Positions 53,269 to 64,000 of a stretch of 64,000 nucleotides of DNA are shown here, one piece after another. The translations under genes and the position numbers were made by a program. This DNA is from Opitutaceae bacterium (GTDB taxonomy: Bacteria > Verrucomicrobiota > Verrucomicrobiia > Opitutales > Opitutaceae). Under the pieces are notes generated by a model that was not told where the DNA came from, ran no database searches, and was given only the letters and a program-made list of their open reading frames with translations. The stretch lies in contig JACSRI010000150.1 in assembly GCA_014879845.1 (NCBI GenBank), positions 1 through 64,000 on the forward strand, in the 5' to 3' direction. Position 1 is the stretch's first letter. Each line of letters opens with the position of its first letter.

Positions 53269-56262
53269 CTACGCTTCCTCCACCTCCGGCGCGAAGCCGC
53301 GGCGCAGGACGTTTTCGGCGATCGCGCGCGGCACCATGAAGTGCTGCAGGTAGTCCGTGCCGCCGGCCTTGGTGCCGCCGCCTGACATCTTGAATCCACC
53401 GAATGGATGCCGACCGACGAGCGCGCCGGTGATGCCGCGGTTGATGTAGATGTTGCCGGCCACGAGTTCGTCGCGTGCGCGGGCGATGTGCGCGGGACTG
53501 CGGGAAAACAGTCCGGCGGTGAGCGCGTACTCGCCGTCGTTGGCCAGCGCGAGCGCCTCGTCGAAATCCGCGGCGCGAAACACCGCGAGGACCGGGCCGA
53601 AGTGTTCCTCGCGCGCGAGACGCGAGTCGCGCGGTACGTCGGTGAAGATCGCGGGCGGCACGAAATAACCTTCGCCGGCCGGCACGGTGCCGCGCCAGAG
53701 GAGTTTTGCGGTCCGGGCACCCTCGTCGATCGTGGCCAGGAGTCGGCGGTGCGCCGTCGCATCGATGACGGGGCCGAGGTGCGTGTGCGCGACCTCGGGT
53801 CGGTCGACATGCAGCGTGGCCGCGCAGCCGGCGAGGCGCTCGAGCACGCGTTCGTAGACGGAGTCGACCACGATGAGCCGCGACAGCGCCGAGCATTTCT
53901 GCCCGGCGAAACCGAAAGCGGAGTGGATGATCGCGGGCAGGGCCTCATCGAGATCGGCACCGCCGTCGACAACGAGCGCGTTCTTTCCGCCCATCTCGCA
54001 GATCACCTTCTTGAGCTCGGGCTGTCCCGCGGCCGTGCGTGCGGCCGTCTCCCAGATCTTGAGCCCGACCTCGCGCGAGCCGGTGAAGGCGATGAGCGTC
54101 ACCTGGGGATGGGCGACCAGGCGCGCGCCGACCTCCTCGCCCGGTCCTGGCAGAAAATGGATCGCGCCCGCGGGCACGCCGGCCTCGAGCAGCACTTCGA
54201 AGAACCGCGCGGCGATGACGGGCGACTGCTCGGCCGGCTTCATCACCACGGTGTTGCCGGTCACGAGCGCGGCGACAGTCATGCCGCAGAGGATCGCGAG
54301 CGGGAAGTTCCACGGCGCGATCACCACTGCCACGCCGCGTGCCCGATAGCGGGTGACACTGGACTCGCCGGGCACGGCGACGTTGCGGTGTTCACCGGCG
54401 AGCCGGCGCATTTCCGCGGCGTAGAACACGCAGAAGTCGATCGCCTCGGTCACGTCGCCGTCGGCCTCGGCCCAGGGCTTGCCCACCTCCAGGACCTCGA
54501 GGGCGGCGAGTTCGTGCCGCCGGCGCCGCAGGATCGCGGCGGCGCGCTCGAGGATCGCGGCGCGCTCGGCCGCGGGGCGGCGTGCCCAGGCCGGCTGCGC
54601 GCGGGCCGCCGCGACCACGGCGGCATCGGCGTCGGCGGCCGTCGCCGAGCCGGCCCGGCCGACGAGCTCCGCGGGGTTGGCCGGGTTGACCGAGTCAATC
54701 CAGGCGGCTGTCTTGATGCGCCGGCCGTCGATGACGGGCGGATGGTCGCGGCCGAGTGCGCTGCGGACCTCCTGCAGGGCGATGGCGAACTCGCGACGCA
54801 TGTTGTCGCGAGTGAAGTCCAGGGGAGGTTCGTTGCGAAACGCCGCCGCGGCCTCGGGTGCAGACGGCGTGGGCGCCCGGTCCGCGATCGTGGCCGCCAC
54901 CGCACCCGGATCGGCGAGGAGCTGGGTGCGCGCGACGCCATCGACGAAGGTGTGGCGCAGGAAACCCTCGTTGGACGTGTTCTCAAGCAACCGCCGTACG
55001 AAATACGCCATGCCGGGCAGCAGGTCGCCGCACGGGCAGTACTCGCGGATGCGGAAGCCGAGCGAGCGCAGCGCGCGTTTCACCGGCTCGGCCATGCCGA
55101 AGAGCATCTGGAACTCGATCGCGCGCAGATCGAGGCCGCGGCGCTGTGCCTGCACCGCCGCGTGCGCGATGCTGCGGACGTTATGCGTGCCGAACGCGGC
55201 CGAGACGACGTCGGCGTGGTCGAGCAGGATGGTCGTCATGCGCTCGAAGCACGCGTCGCTCTCGTGCTTGCGCGACCACACCGGCTGCGGCCAGCCGCGC
55301 TGGCGCGCGAGGATCGTCTCGTAGTCCCAATACGCGCCCTTCACCAGGCGCACGGTGAACTTGCGGCCGAGGCGGCGCGCCTCGGCGATGAGCGCCTTGA
55401 GGTCGGCCTCGCTGTCGCGCAGGTAGGCCTGGATCGCGATGCCGAGCGACGGGCCCGCGGCGAGTCCGGGGTGGCGCAGCAGCTCGGTGAAGAGCCGCAG
55501 CGTGAGGTCCTTGAACGCGTAGCTCTCCATGTCGAGGTTCACGAGCGCGCCATGGTGGGCCGCGCGTGCGAGGATCGGCTGGAGCCGCGCGACGAGCCGC
55601 GGCACCGATTCCTCCGGCGCGATCGTCTGGATGCGCGCGTCGAGCGCGGAGATCTTGACCGACAGGTTCAGGCGCGGGAGCGGTCCGCCGGCCGAGAGAT
55701 CGCTCGCGCATGGCGGGCCGAAGCCCGGGATCGCCGCGGCGAGGGCGTCGAGCACCGCGAGGTTGCGCTGGATGTAGTGGTCGGCTTCGGCGTCGGTGAT
55801 CACCACCTCGCCGAGGAGATCGACCGTCGCCGCATGGCCGAGGCCGTGCAGGCGGCGCACGCTGACGACGAGGTCTTCCGGTGTGGCGCCGGCGATGAAT
55901 TGGCGCGCGAGCGAGGTGATGTTGGCTCGGACGGCTGGTGCGACCAGACCCGACGCGATGCCGGAGATCGCGAGCCCGCCCTTGAGCACAGGCGAGAGCT
56001 CGGCCGCGACGTCGCCGAGGTATTCCTGCATGTGCCGGACAAACTCGGCGTTCGACGTCAGCGCGGGCACGACGTCGACGAAGCGGAAGAGCTGCGTCTT
56101 GAACGCCTCGTTGCGCATGGCGCGATCCATCAGGCGCGCGTACACGCCCTCGGCGCTGAAGAGCGGTGCCGTCGCGCCGTCGATCGCCGTGAAGATGCGC
56201 AGACCGAGTTCCTCGATCGACGGTTGCAGGGATCCGACCGCGCCGCTTGGGGTAACAGGCAT
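53269..56262 (-). CDS. putA: Bifunctional proline dehydrogenase/glutamate-semialdehyde dehydrogenase
   Basis: This 997-residue enzyme oxidises proline to glutamate. The FAD-dependent proline dehydrogenase barrel (about 85-430) contains NLSVKISALDARI, VNLDMESYAFKDLT, RLVKGAYWDYE and FRIREYCPCGDL. The NAD-dependent aldehyde dehydrogenase (about 500-990) has APWNFPLAI, the Glu in CEMGGKNAL and the catalytic Cys in GFAGQKCSALS. The N-terminus lacks the ribbon-helix-helix repressor domain of E. coli PutA, so it should not regulate transcription. The start has GGAGG 11 bases upstream. Product glutamate could feed the glutamate dehydrogenase encoded at 48.8 kb. Confidence 0.95.
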   Translation of the reverse strand: MPVTPSGAVGSLQPSIEELGLRIFTAIDGATAPLFSAEGVYARLMDRAMRNEAFKTQLFRFVDVVPALTSNAEFVRHMQEYLGDVAAELSPVLKGGLAISGIASGLVAPAVRANITSLARQFIAGATPEDLVVSVRRLHGLGHAATVDLLGEVVITDAEADHYIQRNLAVLDALAAAIPGFGPPCASDLSAGGPLPRLNLSVKISALDARIQTIAPEESVPRLVARLQPILARAAHHGALVNLDMESYAFKDLTLRLFTELLRHPGLAAGPSLGIAIQAYLRDSEADLKALIAEARRLGRKFTVRLVKGAYWDYETILARQRGWPQPVWSRKHESDACFERMTTILLDHADVVSAAFGTHNVRSIAHAAVQAQRRGLDLRAIEFQMLFGMAEPVKRALRSLGFRIREYCPCGDLLPGMAYFVRRLLENTSNEGFLRHTFVDGVARTQLLADPGAVAATIADRAPTPSAPEAAAAFRNEPPLDFTRDNMRREFAIALQEVRSALGRDHPPVIDGRRIKTAAWIDSVNPANPAELVGRAGSATAADADAAVVAAARAQPAWARRPAAERAAILERAAAILRRRRHELAALEVLEVGKPWAEADGDVTEAIDFCVFYAAEMRRLAGEHRNVAVPGESSVTRYRARGVAVVIAPWNFPLAILCGMTVAALVTGNTVVMKPAEQSPVIAARFFEVLLEAGVPAGAIHFLPGPGEEVGARLVAHPQVTLIAFTGSREVGLKIWETAARTAAGQPELKKVICEMGGKNALVVDGGADLDEALPAIIHSAFGFAGQKCSALSRLIVVDSVYERVLERLAGCAATLHVDRPEVAHTHLGPVIDATAHRRLLATIDEGARTAKLLWRGTVPAGEGYFVPPAIFTDVPRDSRLAREEHFGPVLAVFRAADFDEALALANDGEYALTAGLFSRSPAHIARARDELVAGNIYINRGITGALVGRHPFGGFKMSGGGTKAGGTDYLQHFMVPRAIAENVLRRGFAPEVEEA

Positions 56263-56388
56263 GGGGCTGAAGTCCTCCTGCGCCGTATCCTGCGGCGCGC
56301 GCCGCGCGACGCGAGCGAGTTACGGCGCGCGGGCCGCCCCTACACGATCAACTCGACCTTCCTCGCGCGTTCGTTCGAACGCGCGAGT

Positions 56389-56871
56389 TCAGCGCCCGAA
56401 GCGCACCAGGGCGTCTCCAGTCAACCGGCACACGCGCCAGTCGGGCAGCACGGTCGCGCCGAGCGATTCGTAGAACTCGATGGCCGGTTTGTTCCACTCG
56501 AGTACCGTCCACTCGAAGCGACCACAGCCCCGGCGGTTGGCCTCGCGCGCCAGATACTGCAACAGCGCCTTCGCATACCCGCGGCGTCGATGGGCCGGCC
56601 GTACGAACAGATCCTCAAGATAGAGCCCGGGGCGCGCGAGGAACGTGGAGAAGTTCTGGAAGAACACCGCAAACGCCGCGGGCTCGCCGTCGGCGAAGCC
56701 GAGCAGCGCCTCCGCGCACGGCCGCGGCCCGAACATCGCGGCGCGCAGCTTCGTCTCGTCGGCCACGCACTCGTGCGCGAGTTTCTCGTAGTCGGCAAGG
56801 TCGCGGATGAACTGCAGCAGCAGCGGCAGATCGCTTTCGATCGCGGGACGGATGGTGAAGGGCGAAGGCAT
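56389..56871 (-). CDS. GNAT-family N-acetyltransferase
   Basis: This 160-residue enzyme has the acetyl-CoA loop RRRGYAKALLQYLAREA and LEDLFVRPAHRR before it, and ends near FYESLGATVLPDWRVCRLTGDALVRFG. It resembles diamine/spermidine-type and related N-acetyltransferases (LYLEDLFV), but substrate is uncertain. ATG 56871 is chosen. The frame continues upstream into the palindromic repeat, giving a spurious IRVHP-type extension. Confidence 0.87.
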   Translation of the reverse strand: MPSPFTIRPAIESDLPLLLQFIRDLADYEKLAHECVADETKLRAAMFGPRPCAEALLGFADGEPAAFAVFFQNFSTFLARPGLYLEDLFVRPAHRRRGYAKALLQYLAREANRRGCGRFEWTVLEWNKPAIEFYESLGATVLPDWRVCRLTGDALVRFGR

Positions 56872-56877
56872 GCGAGT

Positions 56878-57068
56878 AACCACGGATGGACACGGATGAA
56901 CACGGATTCTCAAGGAGGGAACCGCTGAATTGCGCTTATTGGCGCTGACGAGATGAGGACGGTCCGGTTGTCGGGAGCCGCCTCGTGTGTTCGTGTTTGG
57001 CGAGCGTCAATCAGCGCAGATCTGCGGTTCTCGTCACGATTGGGTCGGATCCGTGTTCATCCGTGGTT
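56878..57068. repeat. Nested palindromic element with 10-bp CACGGAT units
   Basis: Outer arms 56878-56908 and 57049-57068 match in inverted orientation at 19 of 20 positions. The left arm has three CACGGAT units at exactly 10-base steps. Inner arms 56919-56946 and 57003-57030 pair at 23 of 28. The whole element thus nearly folds on itself. The right arm includes the stop and last codons of the M20D gene, and the left arm lies just before the GNAT start. It looks MITE-like; transposition has not been shown. Confidence 0.78.
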
Positions 57069-58256
57069 CCACCTCTCCGCGAAACGCCGCGCGAGTTCGC
57101 AGTGCATCTCGATCGCGACCGGGAGAACGTCGTCGTTGTAGTCGTACTTCGGATGGTGACAGAACGGCACCGTCGGCTTGTCCGCCGGGCGCGTGCCGAC
57201 GAAGTAGTAGCAGCCCGTCCGCGCCTGCAGGAAGTAGGCGAAGTCCTCGGCGCCGAGGATCGGCGCGTAGTCGGCCTGCACATGGTCGGCCCCCGCCACG
57301 CCACGAGCGACCTCGGCCACGTAGGCCGCGGCCCGCGCGTCGTTGACTGTGACTGGGTAGCCGGGAAAGAGCTTCACCTCGGCGCGCGCGCCGTGGGCCT
57401 CGGCGATCGACCGGGCCAGGGCGGCAAGGCGCTCGGGCGCGGTCTTCAGCACCTCGGGTGAGAGCGAGCGGATCGTGCCCTCGAGCTCGGCGGAGTCCGG
57501 GATGATGTTCGTGGCCGTGCCGGCGTGGAACTTGCCGACGGTGATGACGAGCGTGTCGACGGGGTTGCTCCCGCGCGACACGAGCGATTGCAGGGCGTTG
57601 ACGATCTGGGCGCCGACGTAGATCGGGTCGACCGTCTGGTGCGGCGCCGCGGCGTGGCCGCCGCGGCCGCGCACCTCGATGGCGAAGTCGCAGGTGCCGC
57701 CCATGAACGAGCCGGGGCGCAGCGCGATGTCGCCGAGGACGAGATCCGCCCCGGGCATGTTGTGGTGGCCGAAGATCGCCTCGACGCGCGGGTTCTCGAG
57801 CGCGCCCTCCTCGGTCATGCGGCGTCCGCCGCCGCCGCCCTCCTCGGCGGGCTGGAAGATGAACTTCACCGGCCCGCGCAACTCCTCGCGCACCTGCGCG
57901 AGCACGAGCGCGGCCCCGACCAGCGCCGCCGTGTGGCCGTCATGGCCGCAGGCGTGCATGAGGCCCGGCTTGGTCGAGGCGTAGGGCAGGCCGGTCTCCT
58001 CGGTGATCGGAAGGCAGTCCATGTCGGCGCGCAGCGCGACGCACGGCCCGGGCTTGTTCGCCCCGAGCGTGGCGACGAGGCCGGTCACGGCGACATGGCG
58101 CCGGAGGGTGAAGTCCGGGAGCGACTCGATCATCGCCGCGACACGCGCGACGGTGGCGACCTCCTTGTATCCGGGTTCCGGTTGCGCGTGCAGCTCGCGG
58201 CGCAGCTGGCGGATGCGCGGGACGATGCGGGCGATGATCGGCTTGAGATCGGTCAT
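57057..58256 (-). CDS. M20D-family amidohydrolase
   Basis: This 399-residue dizinc hydrolase starts LKPIIARIVPRIRQLRRELHAQPEPGYKE. Metal-site motifs include ACGHDGHTA, FQPAEEGGGGGRRM, EAIFGHHNMPG and a C-terminal PFCHHPKYDYNDD. The dimerisation lid has RGRGGHAAAPHQTVDPI. Relatives hydrolyse N-acyl amino acids, hippurate or indole-3-acetyl conjugates. The last four codons and stop lie in or next to the right arm of the palindromic element. The start has a cccacc leader without Shine-Dalgarno. Confidence 0.92.
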   Translation of the reverse strand: MTDLKPIIARIVPRIRQLRRELHAQPEPGYKEVATVARVAAMIESLPDFTLRRHVAVTGLVATLGANKPGPCVALRADMDCLPITEETGLPYASTKPGLMHACGHDGHTAALVGAALVLAQVREELRGPVKFIFQPAEEGGGGGRRMTEEGALENPRVEAIFGHHNMPGADLVLGDIALRPGSFMGGTCDFAIEVRGRGGHAAAPHQTVDPIYVGAQIVNALQSLVSRGSNPVDTLVITVGKFHAGTATNIIPDSAELEGTIRSLSPEVLKTAPERLAALARSIAEAHGARAEVKLFPGYPVTVNDARAAAYVAEVARGVAGADHVQADYAPILGAEDFAYFLQARTGCYYFVGTRPADKPTVPFCHHPKYDYNDDVLPVAIEMHCELARRFAERWNHG

Positions 58257-58335
58257 GGTGGGCGCGCGCCACGCGGCGGCGCGGCCCGATCATCGGTCCC
58301 TGGGGCGTCTGCGCAAGGTAATGGTGCCCGGCTGC

Positions 58336-60765
58336 TCAGGGCATGAGGTAGACCTCGACCAGGGCCACGCCGGTCCCGGAGTCCTTGCCCTTGGCATTGA
58401 CCGTGTAGGAGCCCGGCGGGAGCGTCACGACGAGGGCGGCGTCGGTGCTGCCGTCGTTGAGGCGGAAGGCGCGCACGGTGAGCGCGGCCTGGCGGAGGGT
58501 CTCGGTATCGCCGTTCTCGCCCCAGGTGTCGTTGGTCAGGAGGAGGTCGTCCGTGGCGGTGCCGGGGCGGCGCTTGTAGATCTCGAACCAGGGATCGGGC
58601 AGGAAGCCGGTGATGCCGAAGCGCGCGAGCGTCGGGCCGACGGCGCGTACAAGGAACGTGCGCGGGCCGGAGTCGGAGACGACGAAGCCGGGGATCATGA
58701 TCTCGCTGCCGACGCCGACGAAGCCGCGGTTGGAGATGTTGACCAGGCGCGTGGCCTCGGCGTCGCCGTTGGCCTCGTAGAGCTCCACGATGGAGACCCC
58801 GGTGGAGTCGCCCTTGCCCGAGGCGACGATGGTGTAGCCGCCGGCGGACAGGTCCATGAGCAGGGCGGCCGAGTTGCTCCCGGTCGTGAGGCTGAAGGCG
58901 TAGAGCGAGGCGGCGGTGTCGCGGATCTCCTGCCAGTTGGCGTTGTCGCCCCAGTTGTCGTTGGTCGCGACATCGACGTAGGCGTCGGCGGTGGCGTCGA
59001 ACCGCTTGAGGACCATGACCGGGTCGGGCAGGGGACTGGCCACGCCGAAGCGCGTGAGTTCGGGACCGACCGCGCGCATGAGGAGTCGCTTCGTGCCGGC
59101 GCCCTCGATGTAGAAGCCGGGGATGAGGACGTTGTCGCCGGTCTGGCAGAGGGCGCGCGTGGAGAGATTGAGCAGGCGCGCGTCGGAGAGTGCGGCGGCG
59201 TCGACCGTGAGCGTGGCGGCGTCGCTCGTGACCGTGCCGAAGGTGTTGGTCACCGTCACGGTGTAGGCGCCGGCGTGCCAGGCCTGCACGCTCGGGATCG
59301 TCAGGGTGGCGGCCATGGCACCGGCGACGGCCACGCCGTCCTTCTTCCATTGATACGTTAGCTCGGCGCCGGTAGCGGCGACGGCAAAGGTGGCGGAGCC
59401 GCCGGCGGTCTGTGTCGTCGACGCGGGCTGGCCGGTGATGACGGGTGGCTCGTTGACCGTGAGCGTCGCCGGGTACGGGGTGGTGAGCGTACCCGAGGTG
59501 TTCGTGCCGCTGAGGCGGAAGCGGTGCCCGTTCATCGCGGCGGTGGTGGTGCCAATGGTGAGCGTCGCGGTCGTGGTGCCGGAGTAGGTGGCGTCGTCGG
59601 CGAGGTCGTTCCAGGAGGTGCCGTTGGTCGAGACCTGCCAGCGCAGGGTCGGAGCGGGGTTGCCCAGGACCGGGACGGAGAAGGTGGCGGACTGGCCGGC
59701 ATTGCGCGTGAGGCTGGCGGGAGAGCGCACAAATGTCGGCCGCAGCGGCGGGTTCGAATCCGCCACGTAGGAGCGCAGCCACGTCATGGCGGAACGATCG
59801 GTGCCGTCGGAGAGCACGAGCACGGCGTTGGCCCGCCACATGCCCGGGCGATAGCCCCATGTCGTGATGCCCATCACGGCGGGATGCTCCCAGAGTGCCG
59901 GGAAGAGGCGCTGGTAGCGATCGAGCTGCGTGGTGTCGTTGACCGTCGTGGAGTCGGCGCCGTCGATATCCATCTCGGTGATCATGATGGGCAGGCCGGC
60001 CGAGGCCATGAGGGTGAGGTTGGTCGTGAGCGTGTTGGCCTGCATGGTGGCGATGGTGAAGCTGTGGGCCTGCTCGCCGATGATGTCGACCAGCCCCTCG
60101 GCCTTGAGCAGGGTGACGATCTCGAGGAAGCGGTTGAGCGTGGTCGTGTTGTTCACGAGGCTGTAGTCGTGCATCACGAGCGGCGTGTTCGGGAAGGCGG
60201 CGCGGGCCAGGCGGAAGGCGTTGAGCACCCAGTCCCAGCCGGTCGTGCCGGCACCGCCGAGCGCGGCGATGTAGGCGCCGTCGTTCGGGTCGACGGAGCC
60301 GGGTGCGTCGAACCGGCCGGGCAGGCCGTCGGGCGCGTCGCTGATCGGCTCGTTGACCACTTCAAGGTAGTCGATGTCCGGATACCGGACGGCCACGGCG
60401 GCGTACCATTCCTGGATCTCCTCGAGCTGCTCGGCGGCCGGGAGCGAGGCGATCCAAGCCGGCTGCTGGTTGCCCCAGATGAGGATGTGGAAGCGGAAGG
60501 GCAGGCCGTTGTCCTTCGCGAGGGCGTAGGCCGCGTCGAGTTGCGTCCAGTTCATGACGTCGCGCGTGGACTCGACGCTGCCCCATTTGCCGGCGTTTTC
60601 CGGTGTGATCTGGTTCCAGGTGTCGAGCAGGCCGACGGCCTGGGCAGTGCTGTGGATGCCGCCGAGGAACTTGGGTTTGCCGGCGGCGAGCGGCGCGGCG
60701 GACAGGGCGGGGCCGGTCGCGACGGCGGCGAGAAGGAGGGCGAGGCTGCGGGAGAGGAGGCGCAT
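58336..60765 (-). CDS. Secreted GH10 glycoside hydrolase with Ig-like domains and duplicated C-terminal module
   Basis: This 809-residue protein has a signal peptide (1 to about 23). The GH10 domain (about 30-335) carries acid/base Glu139 in VVNEP and nucleophile Glu264 in MITEMDIDG, with TPENAGKWG and FRFHILIWG as family blocks. Two Ig-like domains (about 345-437 and 440-522) follow, then two copies of a module of about 140 residues (529-668; 669-809) sharing IPGF...RAVGP.LARFG..LPDP and N.NWG/DTWGENG. GH10 enzymes are mostly endo-beta-1,4-xylanases. The short GH10 domain and the Gly where the second His of HxLxWH usually stands may alter specificity. No sorting motif is seen. Confidence 0.86.
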   Translation of the reverse strand: MRLLSRSLALLLAAVATGPALSAAPLAAGKPKFLGGIHSTAQAVGLLDTWNQITPENAGKWGSVESTRDVMNWTQLDAAYALAKDNGLPFRFHILIWGNQQPAWIASLPAAEQLEEIQEWYAAVAVRYPDIDYLEVVNEPISDAPDGLPGRFDAPGSVDPNDGAYIAALGGAGTTGWDWVLNAFRLARAAFPNTPLVMHDYSLVNNTTTLNRFLEIVTLLKAEGLVDIIGEQAHSFTIATMQANTLTTNLTLMASAGLPIMITEMDIDGADSTTVNDTTQLDRYQRLFPALWEHPAVMGITTWGYRPGMWRANAVLVLSDGTDRSAMTWLRSYVADSNPPLRPTFVRSPASLTRNAGQSATFSVPVLGNPAPTLRWQVSTNGTSWNDLADDATYSGTTTATLTIGTTTAAMNGHRFRLSGTNTSGTLTTPYPATLTVNEPPVITGQPASTTQTAGGSATFAVAATGAELTYQWKKDGVAVAGAMAATLTIPSVQAWHAGAYTVTVTNTFGTVTSDAATLTVDAAALSDARLLNLSTRALCQTGDNVLIPGFYIEGAGTKRLLMRAVGPELTRFGVASPLPDPVMVLKRFDATADAYVDVATNDNWGDNANWQEIRDTAASLYAFSLTTGSNSAALLMDLSAGGYTIVASGKGDSTGVSIVELYEANGDAEATRLVNISNRGFVGVGSEIMIPGFVVSDSGPRTFLVRAVGPTLARFGITGFLPDPWFEIYKRRPGTATDDLLLTNDTWGENGDTETLRQAALTVRAFRLNDGSTDAALVVTLPPGSYTVNAKGKDSGTGVALVEVYLMP

Positions 60766-60965
60766 GGATCGGAAAGGGGGTCGAGGTGGGATGGTTCGCG
60801 CGGTACGACGGGTGGCAGGGGTGCGGGTCAACCTGCCCGGCCCGGGCCGTCGCGCGAATCGCGCCGCATTCAATCTATTGACGATCGCCCGCCGCGCACG
60901 CGCGCAGGTCGTGATGTGGCCGAACCCGGTGGACCTCCCGCGGGTTTGCGCCACAGTCTCGCGCG

Positions 60966-63152
<2,187 letters not shown>

Positions 63153-63167
63153 GGCGCCTCAACGTGC

Positions 63168-63190
63168 GCCGCGCGCTCAGAGCGCGCGGC
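63168..63190 (+). terminator. GC-rich hairpin after the DUF255 gene
   Basis: gccgcgcgct and agcgcgcggc form a perfect 10-bp stem with a 3-base loop 16 bases past the stop. The stem is strong but no T-tract follows, so termination is uncertain. Confidence 0.4.
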
Positions 63191-63289
63191 CTGCCCCGGC
63201 CCGCACAGCGGCGTTGACAGCGGCGAACGCGCCCGGATTTGTTGCGCGCGGGTGTCGCGTGTCGCGCCCCGTCCAACCCGTTTCCTCCC

Positions 63290-64000
63290 ATGTTGTCCTA
63301 CTCCGAAATCGTCGCCCGCATGCCTCGCGAGGCCCTTACGAAGATCGACTCGTCCCTCGTCGGCTATCCTCACGTGGCTTCGGGCAAGGTGCGCGATATC
63401 TTCGACCTCGGCGACCGCCTCCTGCTCGTCGCGAGTGATCGCATCTCCGCCTTCGACGTGGTGCTGCCCGATGGTGTGCCCGGCAAGGGAATCGTGCTTA
63501 CCCAGATCAGCCGCTTCTGGTTCGAGCAGACCAAGGGCATGGTGCCCGACCATCTTCTGCCGGACCAGGAGAAGGTCATGGCCGACGAGCTCAAGCTCCC
63601 GGCCGAGCTGCACCTGCGCAGCATGGTGGTGAGAAAGCTCAAGCCGCTCGCGATGGAGTGCGTGGCCCGCGGCTACCTCGCCGGCAGCGGCTGGTCCTCC
63701 TACAAGAAGAACGGCACGGTCTGCGGCCACAAGCTGCCGCCTGGGCTCGGCGAGGCGCAGGAACTGCCCGAGCCGATCTTCACCCCGACGACGAAAGCCT
63801 CAGTCGGCCACGATATGCCGCTCGACGAGGCCGGCGCCCGCGCGCTCGTCGGCGACGCGACCTACGAACTCACGCGCAAGCTCACCCTCGGCATCTACCG
63901 GATGGGCCAGGCCCGCGCCCGCAAGGCCGGCATCCTTCTGGCGGATACAAAGTTCGAGTTCGGCACCGACGACAAGGGCGTGCTCCATCTCATCGACGAG
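63290..64000 (+). CDS. purC: SAICAR synthetase, phosphoribosylaminoimidazole-succinocarboxamide synthase (3' end cut off)
   Basis: The first 237 codons are in the window and the frame runs off the right edge. The enzyme joins aspartate to CAIR in purine synthesis. VASGKVRDIFDLGDRLLLVASDRISAFD is the ATP-site signature, followed by MECVARGYLAGSGW, TPTTKA and ADTKFEFG. The long form starting with an extra leader (MLSYSEIVARMPREALTKI) resembles the larger eukaryote-like PurC of several bacterial groups. The start at 63290 is preceded by tttcctccc, with no Shine-Dalgarno. Confidence 0.95.
   Translation, partial: MLSYSEIVARMPREALTKIDSSLVGYPHVASGKVRDIFDLGDRLLLVASDRISAFDVVLPDGVPGKGIVLTQISRFWFEQTKGMVPDHLLPDQEKVMADELKLPAELHLRSMVVRKLKPLAMECVARGYLAGSGWSSYKKNGTVCGHKLPPGLGEAQELPEPIFTPTTKASVGHDMPLDEAGARALVGDATYELTRKLTLGIYRMGQARARKAGILLADTKFEFGTDDKGVLHLIDE

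Follow-up and report, generated by a model that had tools for sequence, protein, structure and literature searches.

C-terminal address tags such as the CTD of type IX secretion (T9SS) have helped to reveal whole secretion systems, and type IX secretion handles many diverse CTD cargo proteins per genome. To our knowledge, outer-membrane export and the surface attachment of polysaccharide enzymes are poorly known in Verrucomicrobiota. The PEP-CTERM/exosortase and GlyGly-CTERM/rhombosortase systems likewise rely on many-to-one C-terminal tags with a sporadic distribution, two properties shared by the module pair described here. According to PMC3237569, other tails may be found on homologous cargo, and one GlyGly-CTERM protein is given for Opitutus terrae. 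The pair ends a GH10 protein of an Opitutaceae bacterium. We read it as a portable, lineage-amplified localisation tag, most probably one that fixes exported proteins on the surface of the cell or in its matrix, and give this reading a probability of about one in two.

The GH10 protein and its terminal modules

The window is the whole stretch of DNA that was analysed (64,000 nucleotides, contig JACSRI010000150.1). Its GH10 ORF spans 58336–60954 on the minus strand, with a probable start at 60765, and has the following organization:

58336..60765, minus strand: GH10 gene from the likely start codon (placed by eye at MRLLSRSLALLLAAVATGPALSA) to the stop, 809 aa
60700..60765, minus strand: signal-peptide-like N-terminus, about residues 1–22 (home-made hydrophobicity rule)
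59803..60630, minus strand: GH10 catalytic domain, residues 46–321 (PF00331, E 3e-51)
59197..59727, minus strand: Ig-like region before the pair (PF13927; outer limits by eye)
58771..59178, minus strand: first module of the C-terminal pair (module 1), 136 aa, a PPC-like jelly roll by prediction
58339..58749, minus strand: module 2 of the pair, 137 aa, ending VEVYLMP and then the stop

PF13927 matches two stretches of the protein, the best being residues 440–507. The pair makes up the final 280 residues (58336–59178, minus strand), in which neither Pfam nor NCBIfam names a family. From their translations, we take the genes around GH10 (53269–63999) to code for proline/aldehyde dehydrogenase-like, amidohydrolase-like, thioredoxin-domain DUF255-like and purC-like proteins; on these tentative identities they resemble housekeeping genes rather than a polysaccharide locus.

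The landmarks of module 1 (59178–58771) are IPGF, RAVGPELTRFGVASPLPDP and VELY, and those of module 2 (58749–58339) are IPGF, RAVGPTLARFGITGFLPDP and VEVY, followed by LMP and the stop; the HMM boundary of module 2 falls two residues before the stop. The modules are identical at 57 of 134 positions (43%; 108 bits, E 3e-36, BLASTP), a likeness that lies far beyond chance and bears out the two tandem C-terminal modules proposed in an earlier note on this DNA. The interval assigned to them there, 58336–60010, is about twice as wide as the modules themselves, which occupy 58339–59178, while 59179–60010 covers the Ig-like stretch and the last part of GH10.

A tree of 194 modules, 181 of them from two-module ORFs, was computed from 130 columns and is poorly resolved. 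Only 8 of the 181 modules have their own partner as nearest neighbour, so a fresh duplication inside the GH10 gene is unlikely and the modules were probably inherited as a pair. For 128 of 181 modules the nearest neighbour occupies the same place in its own pair, and the tree has 41 position changes versus at least 52 in 200 shuffles. A clean split between first and second modules is absent, the best split leaving 68 errors.

Copies, position and cargo of the pair

The tandem sequence as query gave 60 matches in the source genome and a 41-row pair profile gave 55, while an iterated HMM seeded with the two GH10 modules found 97 domains in the sequence around these matches. The profile search and genome count that the earlier note had proposed thus yielded 54 module ORFs after removal of one duplicate. 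Two modules joined by a linker of 5–10 residues are present in 41 of these, and a single module in 13, some of them cut by contig ends. Two ORFs end with their contig or stretch. Among the 50 ORFs closed at the 3' end, a module lies no more than six residues from the stop in 46, the distance being exactly 2 in 35; two others lie at 7–10 residues and two, both single modules (L081 and L083), further away. On longer stretches the ORFs of L055 and L070 have the pair near the N-terminus, hence 46 of 52 source-genome ORFs are C-terminal. A set from elsewhere (40 stretches from 14 genomes and 6 MAG loci), drawn for the most part from top-scoring matches and not randomly, behaves similarly: 46 of 52 closed module ORFs end within six residues of the module, or 46 of 54 when two further ORFs, internal on a longer reading, are counted.

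The GH10 protein, with its VEVYLMP end, lacks the VPEP-transmembrane-Arg tail of PEP-CTERM proteins, and no GlyGly-CTERM tail (GG, hydrophobic stretch, Arg-rich end) follows its pair. The pair differs from both tags in that most copies, as in those 46 of 50 closed ORFs, leave no room after them for a transmembrane stretch and Arg tail. Note that a terminal proline is found at 57 of 92 near-terminal module ends, compared with 21 of 137 further genes in the secretin clusters described below.

The pair need not be C-terminal. It is found near the N-terminus of long DUF1800 proteins at L139, L140, L142 (two proteins, one cut by the locus end) and L089 (by eye), and of other DUF1800 proteins at G013:C13, G206:C17 and G310:C24, where the match coordinates fall in one open frame. 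CHRD lies between the N-terminal pair and DUF1800 in all four scanned proteins. A Calx-beta protein (L141) also carries the pair near its N-terminus and a Kelch protein (L144) has it 119 residues before the end. In genomes G270 and G284 (loci L121 and L122) the only pair found sits on a delta-60-repeat protein (L121) and is followed by a tail of 56–57 residues, Gly/Ser-rich, then hydrophobic, then Arg-rich. By eye, this tail may be a conventional anchor, a GlyGly-CTERM look-alike; NCBIfam searched with L121 at E up to 0.01 returned no GlyGly-CTERM model.

Signal-peptide-like starts were scored by a strict home-made rule in 26 of 45 source-genome and 25 of 45 other-genome ORFs closed at the 5' end, compared with 2 of 183 and 1 of 224 windows inside the same proteins, respectively. 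The cargo was scanned outside the modules in 47 of the 54 source-genome ORFs, the seven shortest remainders being omitted. Polysaccharide-enzyme domains are found in 15 of them, three weakly, and include GH10, GH26, GH43, GH44, GH53, glycoamylase, RGL11 and pectinesterase. Other enzyme domains (subtilases, M10, M11, GSDH, metallo-beta-lactamase fold) are present in 6, propeller or RCC1 repeats in 4, Ig/Big/fn3 domains alone in 9, PA14 in 2 (each a DUF1800 protein), and fasciclin, beta-helix and CBM4_9 in 1 each; 2 have weak DUF matches and 6 no match. An Ig-like domain frequently directly precedes the pair. In 14 of the 41 best matches between pairs the relation extends over the preceding 400 residues, so some copies spread with neighbouring domains.

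Distribution, tail replacement and the secretin-linked giant protein

In a sample of the phylum, 7 of 145 genomes gave a match to the pair profile (best 17 or fewer candidates per genome scored), and in one of the class 15 of 236 did so (best 10 or fewer). Thirteen genomes have from 11 to at least 141 matches each, some of them single modules or fragments; the best 150 of 226 candidates were scored in G310, so its count is a lower bound. There is a single match in G270 (27 of 27 candidates scored) and one among 10 of the 21 candidates of G284. Among the genomes listed for this family, 13 that represent 7 genera have no match in the best 10 or fewer candidates of each. A scan of genome contigs with two narrow peptide patterns gave 6 pair loci, all in verrucomicrobial MAGs, and a search of plasmids, phages and viral contigs found no relatives. 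The distribution is very patchy and amplified by lineage. The suggestion of the earlier note that such modules end many verrucomicrobial secreted proteins therefore stands as to their number and signal-peptide-like starts, but not as to breadth, given 15 of 236 class genomes. Among the papers listed on protein sorting, C-terminal domains and type IX secretion in Verrucomicrobia, on PPC domains and on DVUA0089, none describes the pair in its title or the opening of its abstract; a description may exist elsewhere.

A dependence of the pair on exosortase was considered and rejected: PF09721 is present in 35 of 35 genomes regardless of the pair. PEP-CTERM match counts are somewhat lower in the 13 pair-rich genomes than in the remaining 22 (p 0.088 two-sided, 0.044 one-sided), a contrast that is not convincing. 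Secretins also occur in all 35 genomes, with or without the pair. PF14349 (SprA_N) has no match in any of the 35, an absence that is uninformative as 14 control genomes are equally silent.

GH10 matches with an E-value no higher than 1e-10 were obtained in 9 of 35 genomes searched, with close relatives (55–63% identical) in three besides the source genome. The four genes are presumed orthologs on the basis of sequence. The G143 protein (56% identical) ends in Ig and pair; the G108 protein (55%) has neither tail, and no pair match is found in that genome. In the protein of G099 (63%), a genome of a sister genus, the Ig region is followed by an unrelated domain of 287 residues. A search with this G099 tag gave 71 segments in G099, or about 40 places once merged (G099:C1; loci L199, L154, L181 and L211–L240) and no match in 34 other genomes. 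All 25 distinct ends that were read have it at the C-terminus. Neither HMM cross-searches nor hhalign (probability 0.1) relate it in sequence to the pair, and a sequence search of the PDB gave no significant match. G099 keeps 11 pair-profile matches. This tail swap is the strongest evidence for a portable tag; it amounts to a natural experiment in which matching xylanases carry two unrelated tags. By eye, 18 of 25 G099 tag ends have a terminal proline; that a frequent final proline is common to pair and G099 tag is suggestive only.

A second protein shows the same replacement. A conserved gene cluster ends in a secretin gene followed directly 3' by the gene of F10, a large Ig-rich protein, in six Opitutaceae genomes (L147, L148, L150, L154, L156, L157). 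F10 ends in the pair in G010, G018, G260, G091 and G322. The G099 F10 is homologous to that of G018 (49% identity over 803 residues) and ends in the same unrelated domain as the G099 GH10 protein. Pfam finds no enzyme domain in the G091 F10. Gene clustering did not find F10 at the secretin locus of the pair-rich G000, G143 and G304 or at that of four pairless genomes (G088, G317, G122 and G327), and G270 and G284 likewise gave none there; the secretin cluster was not seen in the stretches read from G206, G310, G013 and G181. The linkage of F10 to secretin is one syntenic arrangement common to related genera. The four genes before secretin have no Pfam match and, judged by their order and size, may be pilMNOP-like.

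In a second group of secretin genes, the giants encoded downstream in pairless genomes (3136, 4602 and 3154 aa; L189, L190, L191) are without the pair, and those of G018 and G260 (1358 and 2818 aa; L149, L182) carry it. A swap of the pair for a PEP-CTERM tail was examined in pairless secretin-linked giants of G085, G317 and G140 and rejected, as no PEP-CTERM-like tail was seen by eye.

Predicted fold, readings of the pair and known systems

AlphaFold models have pLDDT 88.3 and pTM 0.84 for the pair (9-row alignment), and pLDDT 89.0 and pTM 0.85 for module 2 (18-row alignment). A single module aligned by VIA-align is closest to LipL32 (Z 9.0, rmsd 3.0, 116 aligned), Tk-SP (Z 8.9, rmsd 2.6, 95 aligned), the ColG collagen-binding domain 1nqj (Z 8.9, rmsd 2.5, 91 aligned) and the PPC domain of B. 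anthracis 5sv5 (Z 8.2, rmsd 2.7, 93 aligned), nearly tied with the C. perfringens enterotoxin C-terminal domain (Z 7.9) and calpain (Z 7.8). Z values of 8–9 are modest in these model-based comparisons, little above those that unrelated folds can reach, and several jelly rolls are nearly tied. Foldseek places the enterotoxin domain first (E 1.4e-4) and a PPC domain twelfth (E 1.9e-3). The VIA-align ranking is preferred, and in the predicted model the module resembles a PPC/collagen-binding-like jelly roll. A sequence-profile search of the PDB with the pair gave no match.

The predicted jelly roll of the pair has a modest likeness to that of PPC (PF04151) and the ColG/ColH collagen-binding domains, and its tandem arrangement is also found in ColG s3a-s3b (entry 5iku) and in the PPC domains of protease E495 (PMC3327674). 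The module differs in being longer than the solved domains compared, with predicted helices, and the pair in riding on many kinds of cargo. PF04151 matches 1 of 41 pairs (E 0.0071), with no match in the GH10 pair. No CBM family is among the 15 Pfam families listed for the 41 pairs at an E-value of 0.1 or less, and no type IX CTD family is among the Pfam and NCBIfam families listed for them at this limit. Under the same limit NF038127 (FDP_fam, DVUA0089 family) matches 20 of the 41 source-genome pairs, with 1.7e-10 as the best value, although its best stretches cover only about 56–104 of 150 profile positions. Its 29-bit cut-off is passed by 5 of 10 proteins (L041, L049, L086, L088, L089) and missed by L087, L084, L044 and L121; the GH10 pair is unlisted. 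The absence of a known function claimed in the earlier note thus holds for Pfam cover and is weakened by NF038127 and by the PPC/collagen-binding-like fold.

Since unlike proteins share the pair and a G099 counterpart differs, the end of the xylanase resembles an address tag more than a part of the enzyme. The shared pair, its usual place at the C-terminus, the enrichment of signal peptides, the diversity of cargo, the copy number, the patchiness and the confident predicted fold are computed results, as is the unrelated C-terminal domain in place of the pair in two G099 counterpart proteins. That the pair localises its carrier at all, and by attachment, is what we infer from them. Carriers would enter the periplasm via their signal peptides and then cross the outer membrane by a putative route. 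Once folded, and in many cases projected outwards by Ig-like spacers, the pair would bind a common putative ligand and thereby retain carriers on the cell surface or within the extracellular matrix. The predicted likeness to PPC, collagen-binding and LipL32 domains suggests such a binding role. The anchoring or sorting role raised in the earlier note fits the C-terminal position, the cargo diversity and the tail swap.

Alternatively, the pair could be an export signal read, and perhaps trimmed off, by an outer-membrane translocon as is the type IX CTD. The short and near-constant distance to the stop in most ORFs would agree with this, as would an Ig domain before the terminal beta-sandwich, an arrangement that PMC4804311 gives for RgpB. 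Lineage amplification and the non-homologous G099 replacement would suit a joint change of signal and receptor, and pair-bearing giants are encoded directly 3' of secretin genes in five pair-rich genomes, with a second one in G018 and G260. Secretins occur in all 35 genomes irrespective of the pair, however, and N-terminal pairs in DUF1800 proteins and one Calx-beta protein are better explained by attachment than by a C-terminal export signal, which leaves this alternative doubtful.

A module steering each enzyme to its carbohydrate or protein substrate is unlikely. The predicted fold is like that of collagen-binding and PPC domains, the tandem PPC domains of E495 bind protein substrates (PMC3327674), and polysaccharide enzymes make up 15 of 47 scanned cargo proteins. 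With this last fraction, general polysaccharide binding, one of the options raised in the earlier note, finds no support; the same kind of pair is carried by proteases, beta-propellers, Ig-only and DUF1800 proteins, and G099 uses one unrelated domain on both a xylanase and its F10 counterpart. Least probable is that the pair passively caps its carriers, making them more stable or protease-resistant without addressing them, with copies that spread through duplication and recombination: the C-terminus may simply be a landing place for late additions and the upstream 400 residues are also related in 14 of 41 best matches, but dozens of copies are kept at one short distance from the stop, presence and absence differ sharply between genera and another shared tag takes the place of the pair in G099.

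Beyond attachment by a localisation tag, we raise with considerable reserve an Opitutaceae export or display system in which receptor and C-terminal tag shift with the lineage, with F10 as a part or a dedicated client. Most pair-rich genera would then, equally tentatively, use the double jelly roll and G099 largely its non-homologous tag. The two tag profiles can be used in genome screens for the missing receptor, and the pair, which reaches at least 141 profile matches in a single genome, has no Pfam model.

The nearest working models would be, by analogy, the T9SS CTDs and the E495 PPC domains (PMC4804311 and PMC3327674). As described in PMC4804311, the type IX CTD is, like the pair, a C-terminal beta-sandwich that follows an Ig-like domain, with the signal peptide at the opposite end. 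The two differ in that the pair is PPC-like and the type IX CTD Ig-like, there is no sequence match between them among the families listed at E up to 0.1, and the pair occurs in Verrucomicrobia and sometimes near the N-terminus of its carrier. In addition to these differences, which we draw from the analysis above, there is one of dimension. The pair is much larger than the CTD of type IX secretion.
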